From positions 1 to 64,000 of the forward strand of contig JAKLJW010000022.1 of assembly GCA_023150935.1 (NCBI GenBank): a stretch of DNA of 64,000 bases. Reading direction: 5' to 3'. The notes below the pieces were generated by a model. It did no database searches, was not told the origin of the DNA, and saw only the letters and a list, made by a program, of their open reading frames with translations. Shown here in pieces: positions 3,769 to 49,446 of the stretch. The translations under genes were made by a program, and so were the position numbers. The DNA comes from Candidatus Binatia bacterium. Lineage in GTDB: Bacteria > Desulfobacterota > Binatia > HRBIN30. The stretch's first letter is position 1. Each line of letters begins with the position of its first letter.

Positions 3769-3842
3769 GGTCGGAATCGGGACCGCTATCGACATCGGGA
3801 TCGAATTGCGCCGCGGGCCGAGAGCGATTCCGATACCGACCC
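3769..3842. repeat. Inverted hexamer-based repeat
   Basis: The gap 3600-3993 contains no gene. In it, GGTCGGAATCGG (3769-3780) is answered by CGATTCCGATACCGACC (ending at 3842), forming an imperfect hairpin. The unit (GATTCC/GATACC hexamers) recurs in the accessory island near 40.8 and 41.7 kb, which marks it as a dispersed repeat of this genome rather than a local promoter element. Confidence 0.5.
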
Positions 3843-3963
3843 CAGGCCGACTCGGTCGCCCCGCGCCATCTGCGCCCCGCCCCGGCCGAGGCGAAGGATC
3901 GTCCGAATTGTCGCACCGTTCCCGAATGGAGTCCCCCGATTGACTCGGGTCGGTCCTCCGGTA

Positions 3964-25802: not shown

Positions 25803-28010
25803 ATGGGCGCATTCCGAGGATGGACGAACCGTACCATGGTGCGGGTCCGACTTGTTGCGGTTGCCATTGTCCTCACCGTACCCGCGCCGGTATTGGCGGC
25901 GTCCACACTGGTTTCGGTTAACGCCGCGGGCACCGGGAGCGGCAACGCCGAATCGTCGGGTCCCTGGGGCGTCAGCGACACGGGACGGTACGTGTGTTTC
26001 GACAGCCTTGCCGACGATCTCGTCGCCGGAGACGACAACGGGTTTGGGGACGTGTTCGTGCGCGACACGCAGGTGGGCACGACAACCCTGGTGAGTATGC
26101 GTCACACGGGAGGGGGCAGCGGCGACCTGGATTCGCTGTGTTACGGGCTGAGCGGCGACGGCCGCTATGTCGCACTGGTCAGCGCGGCCGGCGATCTCGT
26201 GCCCGGTTTCGTCGACGGCAACGACGGCGGCGATGACGGGTTTGTCCGCGACCTGCTCGCCGGCGCGACCGAGCTGATCACGGTGAACGCCGCCGGCACG
26301 GCCAGCGCCAACCTTGGTGTCGGCACGATCTTCGAGATCAGTGCGGCGGGTAGCCGTGTCTTCTTCGATAGTGCGGCCTCAAATCTGGTCGCCAACGACG
26401 GCAACGGCGTTTCCGACGTCTTCATGCGGGACCGCGACCTCGGCGTCACCGTTCTCGCCAGCGTCAACGCCGCCGGGACCGCCAGCGCCAACGCCGCCTC
26501 GACCCTTCCGATGTCGAGCGCCAACGGACGCTACGTCGTCTTCAACAGCACCGCCTCCGATCTGGTTGCCGGCTTCGTCGACGGCAACGCCGGCACCGCC
26601 GCGGATCTTTACATCCGCGACGTGGACCTCGGCGTCACCGCACTCGTGACACCCAACACCACCGGCACCGCCAGCGCCAACGCGGCGAGTACGAGCCTCG
26701 AGATCACCCCCGACGGCCGCTACGTCGTCTTCACCAGCGCCGCCACCGACCTCGTTGCCGGCGACAGTAATGGGCGCAGCGACATCTTCGTGCGCGACGT
26801 CGTCGCCAATGTCACCCGACTCGTGAGCGTCGCCGCGAGCGGCGGCGGTAGCGCCAACGGGACGTCGGCAAACGGCGTCCCCAGCGCCGACGGCCGTTAC
26901 GTGGCCTTCGAAAGCGCCGCCACCGACCTGATTTCCGGATTCGTGGACGGTAACGGCGCGGGACGAGATGTGTTCGTCCGCGACCTTACCGCTTCCACCA
27001 CACAGTTGATCAGCGTCAAGCGAACCGGTGGCGGCAGCGCCAACGGCGCCTCCAACCGTCCCCTCATCGGCGCCGACGGCGGCCTCGTCGTCTTCCTCAG
27101 CGCGGCGAGCGATCTCGTGTCGCCGTTCGTCGACGGCAACGGCGCCTTCTCCGACATCTTCGTGCGCGATCGCGTCTATCCGGGGACGGCGCACGTCTCC
27201 CGTAACGCCGCGGGCACCGCCGGGGCCAATGCGGCCCTGGAACCCGGCGAGATCAGCCGCGACGGTCGCGTCCTCGGGTTCTCCAGTACGGCCAGCGATC
27301 TCGTTGCCGGCGATAACAACGGCGTCGGTGACGTCTTCACGGTGCTCCTCCCCGTCACGCCTCGGCCGACGTGGACTCCGACGCGAACCGCTACGCCGAC
27401 GATCACCCCGACGCGAACCATCTCGCCGACGCCTACCGTTGCCGCCGGCGCCGTAAGCGGACGGATCGGCTCGTACGCCAACGCGGCGACCCCGGTGCCG
27501 GCGGTGACGGTGGTGGTTACGGGGCCGACGCCGGGCAGCGTCGGCACCGATGCCGGCGGACAGTACCTCGTCTCGCCGCTCACGGGGGCCACGTGGCAGA
27601 TGTTGCCCCGCAAGGCGGGTGGCCTCGGAAACAGCGTGTCGGCTCTCGATGCGTCCTGGGTCCTGCAAGCCGTTGTCGGACTCCGTGTCCTGTCCCCGAC
27701 CCAAACGCTGGCCGGCGACGTCAGCGGCAACGGTAGCGTGTCGGCGTTGGACGCCGCGATGATACTGCAGCGCGTCGTCGGGCTGCGACCGCAGTTTCCC
27801 GCCGGTGTGAGCTGCGGCTCCGACTGGCACTTCGTGCCGGTCCCGTCGCCGGTGCCGAACCAGACCCTGCTGCAACCGTCGACGGCCGGTGGCACCTGTC
27901 AGAGCGGCGCCATCCGTTTCGAGCCGTTGAACGGTTCGGCCACGGGCCAGGATTTTCTCGGCATCCCGATCGGCGACGTGACCGGCAACTGGAACCCGGG
28001 CGGAAACTGA
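25803..28010 (+). CDS. Secreted PD40/TolB-like beta-propeller with dockerin-like module
   Basis: This 735-residue exported protein starts at ATG 25803, behind GGAGAAGGAAG, giving a signal peptide ending near APVLAAS. About eight repeats of 60-70 residues follow, each with V-V-N-AAGT-SAN, DGRYVVF-S-A-DLV-GD-NG and DVFVRD elements, the WD40-like/PD40 propeller signature. After a TPTRTATPT linker comes a beta domain and a dockerin-like loop (GDVSGNGSVSALDAAMILQ) ending in a conserved GDVTGNW. This C-terminal module of about 175 residues is homologous to the middle of the preceding giant protein. It has no catalytic motif, so a binding or scaffold-associated role is likely. Confidence 0.78.
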   Translation: MGAFRGWTNRTMVRVRLVAVAIVLTVPAPVLAASTLVSVNAAGTGSGNAESSGPWGVSDTGRYVCFDSLADDLVAGDDNGFGDVFVRDTQVGTTTLVSMRHTGGGSGDLDSLCYGLSGDGRYVALVSAAGDLVPGFVDGNDGGDDGFVRDLLAGATELITVNAAGTASANLGVGTIFEISAAGSRVFFDSAASNLVANDGNGVSDVFMRDRDLGVTVLASVNAAGTASANAASTLPMSSANGRYVVFNSTASDLVAGFVDGNAGTAADLYIRDVDLGVTALVTPNTTGTASANAASTSLEITPDGRYVVFTSAATDLVAGDSNGRSDIFVRDVVANVTRLVSVAASGGGSANGTSANGVPSADGRYVAFESAATDLISGFVDGNGAGRDVFVRDLTASTTQLISVKRTGGGSANGASNRPLIGADGGLVVFLSAASDLVSPFVDGNGAFSDIFVRDRVYPGTAHVSRNAAGTAGANAALEPGEISRDGRVLGFSSTASDLVAGDNNGVGDVFTVLLPVTPRPTWTPTRTATPTITPTRTISPTPTVAAGAVSGRIGSYANAATPVPAVTVVVTGPTPGSVGTDAGGQYLVSPLTGATWQMLPRKAGGLGNSVSALDASWVLQAVVGLRVLSPTQTLAGDVSGNGSVSALDAAMILQRVVGLRPQFPAGVSCGSDWHFVPVPSPVPNQTLLQPSTAGGTCQSGAIRFEPLNGSATGQDFLGIPIGDVTGNWNPGGN

Positions 28011-32422: not shown

Positions 32423-33136
32423 ATGGGGCGTGGCGTATACCGAGCGGTGCGTGGCCTTTGGAGCCTCGGCCCGCGGGGTCAGCGATCGGTGCTGGCCGCA
32501 TTGCTGCTGGTCTTGCCGGTTGCGGCGGCGGCCCAGGTGAGCAGTCAGGGACTCCGCCAGCGTTACGACAAGGCGACCAAGGGTGCGACGATCGACGAGT
32601 ACGTGCGCGGCCTCGGCAGCGACGATGCGGACAAGCGGCTGCAGGCGGTTAAGTCCCTGGGGGCGAGCAAGGAACCCAAGGCGGTCGATCACCTGATCGG
32701 AGCGCTCGGGGATGCCGATACGCGGGTGCAGGCGAAGTCGATCGACTTGCTCGGCGAGTTGCGCTCTACCGACGCCACGCAAGTGCTCATCCAGCAACTG
32801 TTCCTGCGCACCACCGAGCCGATGATGAAGCAGCGCATCCTCGCGGCGCTGGGGAAGATCGGCGATGTGCGCGCCGCGCGCCCGATCATGGAGTTCCTGC
32901 AGCGCGATCTCGATGCGGCGACTCGCGGCACGGCGATTTACGCGCTTGGCGATATCGGGGCACCGGAGTCGGTGGCCACCCTGCGGACGATTGCGGCGCA
33001 GGACAACGATTCGACGCTGCGCCGGCTCGCTAACGAGGCGGTGCAGAAGGTTCAACATCAGCAGGATGCGGCGCGGCGGGAAGCCAAAGGTCCGTTGGAG
33101 ACCTTCCTGCCGCAGGCGCCGCCGGAGCAACAATGA
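32423..33136 (+). CDS. Periplasmic HEAT-repeat protein
   Basis: This 237-residue protein has a signal peptide ending in PVAAAAQ (about residue 38). About five HEAT-like helical pairs follow (DADKRLQAVKSLGASKEPKA, then ADTRVQAKSIDLLGEL, then MMKQRILAALGKIGDVRAAR, then AATRGTAIYALGDIGAPES). The tail is Gln/Pro-rich. HEAT solenoids are protein-protein scaffolds, and this one probably acts in the periplasm with the AMIN-like lipoprotein encoded just upstream. The tRNA-Leu gene follows after 36 bp. Confidence 0.8.
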   Translation: MGRGVYRAVRGLWSLGPRGQRSVLAALLLVLPVAAAAQVSSQGLRQRYDKATKGATIDEYVRGLGSDDADKRLQAVKSLGASKEPKAVDHLIGALGDADTRVQAKSIDLLGELRSTDATQVLIQQLFLRTTEPMMKQRILAALGKIGDVRAARPIMEFLQRDLDAATRGTAIYALGDIGAPESVATLRTIAAQDNDSTLRRLANEAVQKVQHQQDAARREAKGPLETFLPQAPPEQQ

Positions 33137-39776: not shown

Positions 39777-39992
39777 CCCGCTCACCCTAAGCCTGTCGAA
39801 GGGTGAGCCTGTCGATAGGGTGAGCTAACCGGTCGACATGGCCATCGCTCCCGCGTCGGTGTAGAAGAAGCGCAAGATGTCGTTCTGGGTTTATCTCCTA
39901 CGATGTGCCGATGGTTCATTCCAGGTTGGGCATACCGATAACCTCGAGCAACGAATGGAACAGCACGCTTCGACAGGCTCAGGGTGAGCGGG
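39777..39992. repeat. 25-bp inverted repeats flanking a 166-bp segment
   Basis: The arms at 39777-39801 and 39968-39992 are perfect inverted copies except for one base (CCCGCTCACCCT, A or G, AGCCTGTCGAAG). Extra partial copies (CTCACCCT, GTCGATAGGGTGAGC) lie at 39736-39760 and 39810-39825. The enclosed segment has no convincing ORF. The unit is a known type of mobile intergenic repeat. Confidence 0.65.
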
Positions 39993-40032: not shown

Positions 40033-40743
40033 ATGAACGTTTCGGACGATCTCCGCGCTAACCTGCAGGGCAGCTTCGGCACTATCCTCGCCGACCCCCC
40101 GTGGCGGTTTGAAAACCGCACTGGGAAGATGGCCCCCGAACACCGCCGACTGCGCCGCTACGAGACGATGAGTATCCAGGACATCAAGGCGCTACCTGTG
40201 TCGGAACTCGCCGCACCTCGCTCCCACCTGTACCTCTGGACACCCAACGCACTCCTTCAATGGGGGCTGGATACGATGAGTGCGTGGGGGTTCACGTACA
40301 AGGGCAATCTGGTTTGGTACAAGGTGCGCTACGATGGAGGCCCTGACGGTCGCGGCGTCGGGTTCTACTTCCGGAACGTAACCGAACTGGTGCTCTTCGG
40401 CGTGCGCGGCAATCTCCGCACGAAAGCGCCGGGGCGCCGTCAAGTGAACCTGTTTGCTTCCCGTAAGCGTGAGCACTCGTGCAAACCGGACCAACTATAC
40501 GATATCATCGAAGACTGCTCCCCCGGTCCTTTCCTCGAACTGTTCGCTCGTCACTGCCGCGACGGCTGGGAGCAGTGGGGCGACGAACTCGAACAAGCAC
40601 CCCATCGGCACCTGCCCATTCCGCGTCGCCGTACCGGCGCGTCAGTTCCAAGCGTCGGCCCGGCACCGGTTACCCCCCGACTGAGGTTTCGTCAGGTGTC
40701 CCGCAAGTGCTTGTTGCAGTTCCCTTCGGGGGTCGACCTGTAG
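40033..40743 (+). CDS. MT-A70-family adenine N6-methyltransferase
   Basis: This 236-residue methyltransferase carries the catalytic motif DPPW (21-24) after the strand FGTILA. It also has SHLYLWTPNALLQWGLD, FTYKGNLVWYKVRYDG and GFYFRNVTELVLFGVRG, all standard MT-A70 blocks, and KPDQLYDIIEDCSPGPFLELFAR near the C-terminus. It should transfer a methyl group from SAM to adenine N6 in DNA. No restriction endonuclease is adjacent, so it is an orphan or phage/cassette-borne enzyme. The ATG at 40033 was chosen because the domain begins there. The final 45 residues are a basic, Pro-rich tail with no family match, probably read-through into repeat DNA. Confidence 0.85.
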   Translation: MNVSDDLRANLQGSFGTILADPPWRFENRTGKMAPEHRRLRRYETMSIQDIKALPVSELAAPRSHLYLWTPNALLQWGLDTMSAWGFTYKGNLVWYKVRYDGGPDGRGVGFYFRNVTELVLFGVRGNLRTKAPGRRQVNLFASRKREHSCKPDQLYDIIEDCSPGPFLELFARHCRDGWEQWGDELEQAPHRHLPIPRRRTGASVPSVGPAPVTPRLRFRQVSRKCLLQFPSGVDL

Positions 40744-40757
40744 TTCGGCGTGAACCA

Positions 40758-40877
40758 ATCGGGGTCGGAATCGGGATCGGGATCGGAATCGAGGACGACC
40801 CGAGCTTCGGCCACGAGCGACTCTGGGTACGCCGGGCAACGGATCGATTCCGATACCGATTCCGATACCGACCCCGA
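40758..40877. repeat. Inverted hexamer array
   Basis: Bases 40758-40794 (GGTCGGAATCGGGATCGG and onward) and 40843-40877 (GATTCCGATACC hexamers repeated, ending CCGACCCCGAG) are imperfect inverse complements separated by about 48 nt. The same hexamers form a hairpin at 3769-3842 and a shorter array at 41688-41705. Confidence 0.65.
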
Positions 40878-40900
40878 GGGGAACTCGCCGCCAGGGAAAT

Positions 40901-40990
40901 GCCGAACAAGACGCTCCACCAGACCGGCGCCACGCGGCCAGGCTGGCCGCGTTCCGGTCCGGTGCCGGCTGGTGAACGGGAGCGTTCGGC
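40901..40990 (+). other. attC-like recombination site 1
   Basis: This 90-nt imperfect palindrome has integron attC layout. R'' is GCCGAAC (40901-40907), and R' is its perfect complement GTTCGGC (40984-40990, cleavage expected after G). An unpaired AAGAC spacer follows R''. GCTCC pairs with GGAGC and ACCAG with CTGGT, then an 8-bp and a perfect 10-bp apical stem (ACGCGGCCAG/CTGGCCGCGT). Extrahelical bases lie on one strand only, as in true attC sites. Confidence 0.65.
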
Positions 40991-41037
40991 AGGTGACCCA
41001 GACCGTGCTACGAGGCACCGCGTCGGCGACCCGGTGC

Positions 41038-41337
41038 ATGGCCTTCACGATCATCTACTCGCCAGAAGCAGTTGAGCACCTTGCGGTGCTCCCGAAAGCC
41101 ACGCAGGTACTCGTGGTCGACCAAGTAGAAGAGCACCTCACGCACGAACCGGCGCTGCCGACCCGGAGGCGCAAGCTTCTTCGCCCTAATCCGATCGCTC
41201 CGTGGGAACTTCGATTGGGTGATATCCGGGTCTTTTACGCTATCGAGGAAGGGCCGGAATCCCTTGTCAAGATTGCAGCGGTCGGCATCAAGCACCATAA
41301 TGAGTTGTGGATCGGCAGGGAGAAGATCGACTTATGA
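41038..41337 (+). CDS. RelE/ParE-family toxin
   Basis: This 99-residue toxin begins MAFTIIYSPEAVEHLAVLPK and continues through RRRKLLRPNPIAPWELRLGD, then IRVFYAIEEGPESLVKIAAV and ends GIKHHNELWIGREKIDL. The RxGxxRVFY-like strand and C-terminal basic/aromatic residues fit RelE-superfamily mRNA interferases, and all beta strands are present, so it looks intact. It precedes its antitoxin (ATGA overlap at 41334), the reverse of the classical order but common in HigBA-like modules. It lies between two attC-like sites, so it forms the body of one integron-type cassette. Confidence 0.78.
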   Translation: MAFTIIYSPEAVEHLAVLPKATQVLVVDQVEEHLTHEPALPTRRRKLLRPNPIAPWELRLGDIRVFYAIEEGPESLVKIAAVGIKHHNELWIGREKIDL

Positions 41338-41678
41338 AAGCCATCGAGTTGTCCGACGTCTCAGCCTTAGCCCCCTACTTGGGACGCGGCGCGGATGAAC
41401 CGCTGCTCCTCACCGATCACGGGCATGTCGTCGCCACCATCGTACCGGCCGACGAGCAGGACGCTGAGAGCATGCTGCTCAGCATCAATCCGAAGTTCCA
41501 AGCCATCCTGGAACGATCACGGAAACGCCTGGAGACGGAAGGAGGTATCTCGACCGACGAGGTACGAGAACGCCTCGGGCTACCGTCAAAGCGCGGCCGA
41601 ACAAAGCGCTCCACCCGCCCGCGGCCGCGGAGCCGTTCCGGGAAGACCGCGGCGTCGCGTTCTGGCCGCAGCGGCTGA
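41334..41678 (+). CDS. Phd/YefM-like antitoxin of the cassette pair
   Basis: The ATG overlaps the toxin stop. The product of 114 residues starts MKAIELSDVSALAPYLGRGA and continues EPLLLTDHGHVVATIVPADE. This is a Phd-type DNA-binding/dimerisation region, followed by a helical segment (PKFQAILERSRKRLETEGG) and STDEVRERLGLP, the usual end. The last 30 residues (Arg/Ser-rich) are encoded inside the downstream attC-like site, a typical overrun for cassette genes. It should neutralise the RelE-like toxin and repress the pair. Confidence 0.72.
   Translation: MKAIELSDVSALAPYLGRGADEPLLLTDHGHVVATIVPADEQDAESMLLSINPKFQAILERSRKRLETEGGISTDEVRERLGLPSKRGRTKRSTRPRPRSRSGKTAASRSGRSG
41593..41669 (+). other. 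attC-like recombination site 2
   Basis: GCGGCCGAAC (41593-41602) pairs with GTTCTGGCCGC (41659-41669) apart from one bulged T. The following AAAGCGCTCCACC matches the AAGACGCTCCACC of site 1 at nearly every position. The inner stems are less regular than in site 1. With site 1 it bounds a unit of about 675 bp (40985-41659) holding only the toxin-antitoxin pair. Confidence 0.5.
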
Positions 41679-41750
41679 GCAACGGATCGATTCCGATACC
41701 GACCCCGAGGGGAACTCGCTGCCCGGGAATTGCGGAACAAGACGCTCCAC
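41679..41750. repeat. Second copy of the pre-attC repeat
   Basis: This 72-bp stretch matches 40836-40920 apart from a 12-bp deletion of two hexamers and a few substitutions. It runs from GCAACGGATCGATTCC through CCCCGAGGGGAACTCGC to GAACAAGACGCTCCACC. The last part is a third attC-type R''-L'' half site (GCGGAAC at 41732-41738), but no matching R' follows. Confidence 0.65.
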
Positions 41751-41782
41751 CCGGGGGCGCGCGGTAACGAGCGCGCCCCCGG
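41751..41782. terminator. Perfect 12-bp hairpin between convergent genes
   Basis: CCGGGGGCGCGC (41751-41762) and GCGCGCCCCCGG (41771-41782) are perfect complements around GGTAACGA. The hairpin lies between the convergent antitoxin gene and the minus-strand zinc-binding gene. It could serve as a bidirectional transcription stop or be the remnant stem of the half attC site; no T-run follows. Confidence 0.45.
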
Positions 41783-42122: not shown

Positions 42123-42292
42123 TGGTCACCTCATGTCGGAAGACGTGGGGTTTGCCCCAGCAAGAGCAATGCCCTGCGGGTGACGAGGCAAAACCAACGG
42201 CAACGCGCCTGCAAACTGGCAGGTAATCCCCATCATATGGTGTGCGTACCGGTAGTTCGATGACGGAGCGTTACGTGGCATGACGGTGGTTT

Positions 42293-42545
42293 GGGGAGGG
42301 CCTGGGGTCCTGGGGTCTTGAGGTCCTGGGGTCTTGAGGTCCTGGGGGTATCGAGGCTTTGGGGGGGAAGTTGGTCTTCGCCTGGTCATCTTATGGGGGA
42401 GACGGTCCCGACACCGTTTGGGCCGAGGAGGGCTCGGCGCAGCCGAGGCCGTCTCGAAGCCCGTGCCCCCCCCAAGACCCCAAGACCCCAAGACCCCCAG
42501 ACCTCAAGACCCCAAGACCCCAGGACCCCAGGACGCCCCCAGGCC
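42293..42545. repeat. Inverted pair of decamer tandem arrays
   Basis: Within the 381-bp gap 42123-42503, the left arm (42293-42370) is a tandem of GGGGTCTTGAGGTCCT-like decamers. The right arm (42468-42545) is the inverse (AAGACCCCAAGACCCC and variants). About 97 bp lie between them. A foldback or recombination hot spot is expected. The right arm encodes the non-native C-terminus of the dehydratase gene. Confidence 0.65.
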
Positions 42546-48699: not shown

Positions 48700-49446
48700 A
48701 TGGTGCGCCGCCGACCGGACAGCCGTTTGGCCGAACTCGTCGAGAGTGCGGCGCGGGTGTTTACCGTGCGCGGCTATCGGCGCACGCAGATGGCCGACGT
48801 GGCGGCGGCGATGGGCGTGGCGCCGGGGACTCTCTACCTGTACGTCGAAAGCAAGGAGGCGCTGTTCCACTTTCTGGTGGAGCGCGGCTGGACGGACGAG
48901 CTGGTCGCTCCCGAGTTGCCCATTCGCACTCAGCCGGCGGCGGCGACTCTGGGTCTGCTGCGCGATCGGCTGGCGACGGCGATGCGCCTGCCGCGACTCG
49001 AGGCGGCATTGCGAGGGCCGGTCCCGCGCGACGCGACGGCGGAACTCGCCGGCATCGTGCGCGAGTTGTACGACATGGTGGCGCGCTACCGGGTCGGCAT
49101 TCGACTGCTCGAGCGCTCGGCGCTCGATTGGCCCGAGCTGGCCGGCATTCTCTACGGCGACGCCCGCGCGAGTTTGTTTGCGGCGCTCGAAGCGTACCTG
49201 CGCACGCGGATCGAGGCGGGGCGGTTTCGCGCCGTGCCGGACGTTGCCGGCATGGCGCGACTCGTCAACGAAAGCGTCGCGTGGTTCGCGATGCACCGCT
49301 ACGCCGATCCGCACTCCGCCGGTCTCGACGACCGCCTCGCCGAAGAGACGGTGGTCCACACCCTCGTAAGCGCGCTCGCGAAATCGCCACCGCGCTCTGC
49401 CGCGACGAGCGAACGCCTAACCCGCAAGAGGAGGCCGACCCGATGA
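48700..49446 (+). CDS. TetR-family regulator
   Basis: This 248-residue regulator has an N-terminal HTH (LVESAARVFTVRGYRRTQMA, then DVAAAMGVAPGTLYLYVESK) followed by a helical effector domain. Its stop codon overlaps the ATG of the PQQ dehydrogenase (ATGA at 49443), so regulator and enzyme are translationally coupled. A palindrome immediately upstream suggests autorepression. The inducer is probably a substrate or product of the oxidase or the TonB-dependent ligand. The C-terminal 20 residues are Lys/Arg-rich and non-conserved. Confidence 0.85.
   Translation: MVRRRPDSRLAELVESAARVFTVRGYRRTQMADVAAAMGVAPGTLYLYVESKEALFHFLVERGWTDELVAPELPIRTQPAAATLGLLRDRLATAMRLPRLEAALRGPVPRDATAELAGIVRELYDMVARYRVGIRLLERSALDWPELAGILYGDARASLFAALEAYLRTRIEAGRFRAVPDVAGMARLVNESVAWFAMHRYADPHSAGLDDRLAEETVVHTLVSALAKSPPRSAATSERLTRKRRPTR

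Follow-up and report, generated by a model that had tools for sequence, protein, structure and literature searches.

Our analysis gives good support to the view that a RelE/ParE-type toxin and its antitoxin in the genome of a Candidatus Binatia bacterium (assembly GCA_023150935.1) are carried by an integron-type gene cassette, as judged from homology over roughly the whole cassette length with G008, a genome of another family in the same order, and from covariance models of the attC recombination site. The pair lies in the first 64,000 nucleotides of contig JAKLJW010000022.1 (the window; Table 1), and the locus very probably represents the remains of a small cassette array that is now immobilised and away from any integrase: a non-coding cassette A, the toxin–antitoxin (TA) cassette B, whose own site attC2 is without its R' end, and a fragment C. 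A first, sequence-only reading of the window had already placed the TA pair in an integron-type cassette, and this assignment holds, but fragment C and the non-coding upstream cassette had been overlooked.

Table 1. Features of the TA locus (window positions) and integrase gene remnants on other contigs of the same genome
Feature	Position	Strand	Remarks
5' boundary of cassette A, GTTCGGC	40743-40749	+	G 40743 doubles as the final base of TAG, the stop codon of MT-A70
Cassette A, non-coding alpha-mini cassette	40744-40984	+	inverted repeats 40746-40792 / 40844-40890
attC1, intact	40901-40990	+	R'' 40901-40907; L'' 40917-40928, unpaired A 40923; L' 40964-40974; R' 40984-40990
Cassette B, TA gene cassette, 3' end decayed	40985-41681	+	last bases overlap the start of the fragment C homology; G008 homology 41032-41681
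Toxin, RelE/ParE superfamily, 99 aa	41038-41337	+	PF05016, 22.9 bits (cut-off 23)
Antitoxin, Phd/YefM-like (weak), 114 aa	41334-41678	+	PF02604, 16.9 bits (below cut-off 29.8)
attC2, decayed	41596-41681	+	R'', L'' and L' kept; R' deleted
Fragment C, from the 3' part of another alpha-mini cassette	41674-41751	+	half an attC (R''-L'') at its end, 41732-41751
Broken IntI copy	C2:215587-216279		133 bits; frame-shifted, C-terminal part replaced by a beta-type attC
Broken IntI copy	C15:105615-106070		internally deleted, at a contig end

The attC sites of the locus

Two covariance models were used, R1, trained on sites of the own genome including attC1, and R2, built only from sites of other organisms. 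The first site, attC1, is a genuine attC. It combines R''/R' and L''/L' arms with an unpaired base on one arm, as the site of an integron cassette does, and its outer arms GCCGAAC/GTTCGGC differ at one base from the consensus RYYYAAC/GTTRRRY given for the integron recombination site in PMC12901181. The DNA fold reached a z-score of -5.5 on the bottom strand and of -6.2 on the top strand, with none of 200 shuffled sequences equalling it, and R2 assigned the site 52.6 bits (E 9e-12, window search) and included it in the genome-wide list at E<=0.1. The sequence-only reading had called this hairpin attC-like because of its two boxes and had suggested bottom-strand folding as a check, and both the call and the check came out in its favour.

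The second hairpin had been taken for a complete attC with a single bulge, and here our data contradict the earlier view. In an alignment with two full attC sites of the own genome (C57:3721-3820 and C2:221930-222025), attC2 can be followed through L' (…GGCTGAGC), and the R' end is missing; past L', the sequence runs from 41674 on into the repeat 'AACGGATCGATTCCGATACC...', which is also found upstream of attC1, and the assumed bulged R' is the counterpart of GCGTTCTGG, which lies in the loop of the homologous sites. Folding was no better than that of shuffled sequences, be it for 41596-41669 (z +0.56, 140 of 200 shuffles equally good) or for 41596-41691 (z -0.43, 54 of 200). Under R2, attC2 scored 18.5 bits (E 0.014, window) and did not appear among the genome-wide matches at E<=0.1, and the 36.3 bits under R1 come from an own-genome model that includes sites homologous to attC2. 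With R2, a covariance-model check of the kind proposed confirmed the first hairpin and failed for the second, and cassette B, whose own 3' attC is not intact, is a former cassette that has decayed. Fragment C matches positions 40857-40920. The three attC sequences of the locus are one intact, one decayed and one half site, and the TA pair is flanked by direct repeats of 64 nt that are 94% identical and 831 bp apart.

In the own genome, 16 sites could be aligned that share the R''/R' and L''/L' arms, and the unpaired A hardly varies among them. Their arms show covariation, as both partners have changed in 9 of 18 pairs (score 0.308 versus 0.097 in shuffles), and a score as high was reached by none of 500 shuffles, with slid controls far lower. 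The same architecture was found in 18 sites of other organisms, six of them from one Thermomonas contig (L061), in which pairing is poor among the outer bases of R' (at the fourth pair, 10 of 18 are unpaired); this is expected if those bases derive from the next cassette. As the training sites of R2 were gathered via a pattern derived from attC1 and via R1, R2 is not a fully independent test. R1 finds tandem same-strand attC arrays in named genomes such as Thermomonas sp. S9 (L061) and Nevskia (L060), and its matches go along with the integrase: among the 39 genomes searched, own genome included, at least five R1 matches occurred in 13 of the 18 genomes with full-length IntI versus 2 of the 21 genomes without (Fisher p 7.6e-5; p 2.2e-5 with the own genome left out), the two exceptions without full-length IntI being the own genome and G008. 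Weak matches in the window at 27854-27940 and 32785-32870 (R1) and at 48918-48980 (R2) were taken as chance. Against Rfam, at the gathering threshold, the window gave two tRNA matches and nothing further.

The toxin–antitoxin cassette and its relative in G008

The open reading frames of toxin and antitoxin overlap by ATGA. The toxin belongs to the RelE/ParE family by profile; its own score lies just below the cut-off, and 9 of 13 homologues match PF05016 (best 2e-8), while its profile matches the YoeB, Rv2866 and PfiT chains in the PDB at E 0.003-0.005. Searches of NCBIfam gave no named family for either protein (the toxin had one sub-threshold match), PADLOC gave no match for either, and a tblastn search of 72,556 plasmid records with the toxin as query gave nothing at 1e-5. 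In comparison with G008, dN/dS (NG86) was 0.142/1.069, or about 0.13, for the toxin and 0.161/1.086, or about 0.15, for the antitoxin, and both genes are therefore under purifying selection. Family membership and selection, both read from sequence, suggest that toxin and antitoxin are functional. The antitoxin residues from 41596 onward are encoded by attC2, and the same overrun is seen in G008. The sequence-only reading, which had proposed a RelE-like toxin with an antitoxin whose tail is encoded by the attC, was right on these points, with the weak PF02604 match as the profile evidence for the antitoxin. Elsewhere in the window, a minus-strand open reading frame at 39142-39690 matches a RelB-like antitoxin with its C-terminal part (27.4 bits, cut-off 27), and no partner was identified.

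The toxin homologue in G008 is 77% identical, and DNA homology of 76% at the nucleotide level extends from 6 bp before the toxin start codon to the end of L'. The flanks of the G008 copy are unrelated and alpha sequence (see below) is not found with it; the copy lies between two attC matches, and the same unit is thus present in another genomic context. No G008 sequence aligns with the 47 bp that separate the R' of attC1 from 41032, and the 5' border of cassette B is therefore bracketed rather than matched base for base. In G008, the attC of the TA cassette is degenerate as well (R'' GCCGGGC and R' GCTAGGC, by eye; fold z +0.53), so that no intact attC of this TA cassette has been seen. Among 29 loci with toxin homologues, a same-strand attC match follows within 700 bp downstream at 10, and at 5 of these another precedes within 200 bp upstream; 2 have an attC upstream only, and 17 have none nearby.

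Mini-cassettes, broken integrases and competing explanations

Cassette A comprises 241 bp between the MT-A70 stop codon and the R' of attC1, with G|TTCGGC at both ends, and is an internally deleted copy of a cassette with a four-helix-bundle (23S rRNA IVP) gene. A full-length cassette of this alpha family is present on contig C57, where it has the same kinds of end as the alpha-mini copies and codes for a four-helix-bundle protein of the 23S rRNA intervening-sequence type (PF05635, 59.8 bits; TIGR02436). Alpha copies with one common internal deletion junction were found in at least 12 places on 11 contigs. For a beta family, there were 30 junction matches on 19 contigs; two of them stem from full-length copies and a minimum of two others are not clean mini copies, which leaves about 26. 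Together, the alpha and beta mini-cassettes are scattered at G|TT sites on about 20 contigs of the own genome. A G precedes the TT in 28 of the 30 located 5' starts, a count that covers only copies with a readable TT start; about ten of these starts follow another attC and some copies are tandem, which makes the p-value of 1.5e-11 optimistic. A first count with a looser anchor gave the core in 28 of 48 cases (alpha 11/18, beta 17/30), in a set that includes spurious pattern hits. Complete alpha copies end at their 3' side in G|TT followed by variable bases, e.g., TTATGG, TTAACC, TTCAGC, TTGGGT, or TTAGGC. Among the 39 genomes, alpha sequence was found at 1e-8 in the own genome only, and beta sequence in the own genome and in G011, the latter merely with stretches of 43-47 nt.

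Such a pattern would be expected of a non-autonomous cassette that has multiplied recently, but many alpha and beta copies have lost attC or the 5' end, and MT-A70 homologues, found in 5 of 57 other genomes with variable C-terminal tails, provided no empty site. Joining the flanks of a copy on C51 was tried as a restoration of a Y1-transposase gene; the gain was modest (Y1_Tnp 26.6 to 30.4 bits, profile reach 84 to 102 of 121) and the joined reading frame then drifts off and probably contains a frameshift, and the joined flanks of six other complete copies yielded no convincing restored gene. We tentatively suggest, at somewhat less than even confidence, that cassette A belongs to a MITE-like class of cassettes, i.e., non-coding derivatives of the IVP cassette of which only the ends are kept, which expanded within one lineage and which IntI, acting in trans, inserted at attG-type G|TT sites of the chromosome, each copy leaving an attC as landing pad. 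A literature search, conducted mostly outside subscription papers and partly on titles and the starts of abstracts, returned no mini-cassette family and no link between integrons and the term 'four helix bundle protein'.

Further repeats were noted. An alpha-type attC at C73:1442-1507 (L019) lies directly behind a gene whose protein resembles a PIN-type toxin by eye. In the window, the short stretch 3818-3843 resembles the GATACC-rich arm of the alpha element (92%) but has no attC, and a perfect 12-nt inverted pair TGAGCCTGTCGA/TCGACAGGCTCA lies at 39804-39815 and 39970-39981 inside longer 'CTTCGACAGGCTCAGGGTGAGC'-like repeats. A long inverted repeat at 42292-42541, beside a PALP-family gene, is made up of tandem 8-nt units and has 76-nt arms that are 79% complementary and 98 nt apart.

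A search with TIGR02249 gave no integron integrase on this contig, as had been stated earlier for the window. In the own genome, there were 12 matches, none above the cut-off of 265 bits, and weak matches also occur in all 14 control genomes; the score of the C2 copy is a level that no control genome reached at 1e-30. This copy and the one on C15 resemble true IntI, but both are broken, and each is followed by a beta/IVP element. An intact integron integrase was not found in the assembly, which consists of 198 contigs with many attC at contig ends, and an intact copy may be missing from it. Further cassettes are present: attC arrays without integrase on C57, C76, and C41, with classical attC arrays on these and on C2. 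The whole of contig C76 (L020; 7.5 kb) is a TA-rich cassette array with Fic/Doc, PIN, and two ParE-family toxins (Pfam), a further toxin homologue found by search, and attC matches between the TA genes. The suggestion to look for intI and more cassettes elsewhere in the genome was thus fruitful for arrays, and gave intI only as broken copies. Between the two labels that had been offered, CALIN-type array or remnant, the latter is the better word, since only one of the three attC sequences is intact and the integrases of the genome are broken. With regard to the CALIN definition, at least two attC and no integrase nearby, the contig gave no IntI match and has one intact, one decayed and one half site.

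It seems scarcely credible that the hairpins are ordinary REP- or MITE-type repeats that resemble attC and enclose the TA pair by coincidence. Hairpins of the attC1 type do occur, with the repeat upstream of them, at about 20 places in the genome, but such repeats would not account for the classical attC arrays on four contigs, the conserved unpaired A, the covarying arms, the 3' ends with variable bases behind G|TT, the cassette-length homology in G008, and the co-occurrence with IntI over 39 genomes. The outcome that the sequence-only reading had named as fatal, attC model non-hits at both sites or plain REP hairpins at many loci, was found by half: attC2 is not a strong hit and the attC1-type hairpin is multicopy, but attC1 is a strong hit, and the copies lie in cassette-like mini-elements with cassette ends, with arrays in the same genome, and are not bare intergenic hairpins. 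A composite element is an improbable alternative; the alpha repeats that flank the TA pair would then be its parts, an unknown transposase of the four-helix-bundle elements its mover, and the attC a passenger. The flanking alpha repeats and the multicopy nature of alpha and beta elements, which have inverted repeats, would fit, but the element ends are R' core sites with respect to both the preceding G and the 3' G|TT, no target-site duplication was found in the junctions inspected, and the TA pair in G008 does without alpha sequence. Very improbable, too, is a still active in-trans array, whose TA cassette can be moved by an integrase elsewhere in the population; attC1 is intact and full-length IntI is present in 18 of the 39 genomes searched, but attC2 is without R', and the own-genome copies of IntI are broken.

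Proposed history and implications

For the immobilised array remnant, we propose the following course of events. IntI acting in trans would have inserted cassette A at a G|TT site, presumably of the attG type, directly downstream of the MT-A70 gene, and the TA cassette would then have joined behind attC1. Later deletions would have cost attC2 its R' and the following cassette both its ends, and the integrase genes would have broken. The TA cassette can today no longer be excised through attC1 x attC2 recombination. It is now fixed, as its own attC is without R' and the assembly yielded no intact integrase, and it persists as a gene pair under purifying selection. Loss of the TA pair by recombination between the direct repeats of about 64 nt would be selected against, if the toxin works (addiction effect).

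Individual components of this model have precedents in print. TA cassettes are known from sedentary chromosomal integrons, as described for Vibrio in parts of PMC11023631 and PMC8618304, and the present unit resembles them, as far as they are described there, in its two genes, in an own attC of the same orientation, and in an antitoxin that reads into the attC; it differs in being a lone remnant with a broken attC2, no intact integrase in the assembly, and a putative stabilising role. Integrase-less cassette arrays and off-target insertion by IntI have been described (PMC8618304, PMC12444791), off-target insertion by an IntI elsewhere in the genome is one proposed origin of CALINs (Cury et al. 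as cited in PMC8618304), and the attG sites of Loot et al. 2024 are described in PMC12444791 and PMC12901181. As in CALINs, the cassettes lie away from an integrase, but one intact attC is below the two-site threshold stated in PMC12444791, and many sites of the own genome are copies of one mini-cassette. With MITEs, i.e., miniature transposon copies, as these are outlined in the sources available, the mini-cassettes share that they are internally deleted, non-coding and multicopy with kept ends, whereas the alpha and beta ends are R' core and attC instead of transposon inverted repeats, and the proposed mover is IntI. Integrons were reported from Planctomycetes, among other phyla, in PMC2426708. 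The TA locus is a new instance of something known, and the mini-cassette family is possibly new.

In summary, the locus may show the aftermath of integrase death, in which the attC of the TA cassette erodes, here as in G008, and purifying selection continues to act on the TA genes. If IntI moves the mini-cassettes, integron cassettes can act as a multiplying non-autonomous repeat family. If this is true, the attC of each mini-cassette offers functional cassettes, the TA pair being one example, a place to insert, and mini-cassettes could seed arrays away from the integron, and the origin of scattered cassette arrays becomes testable.
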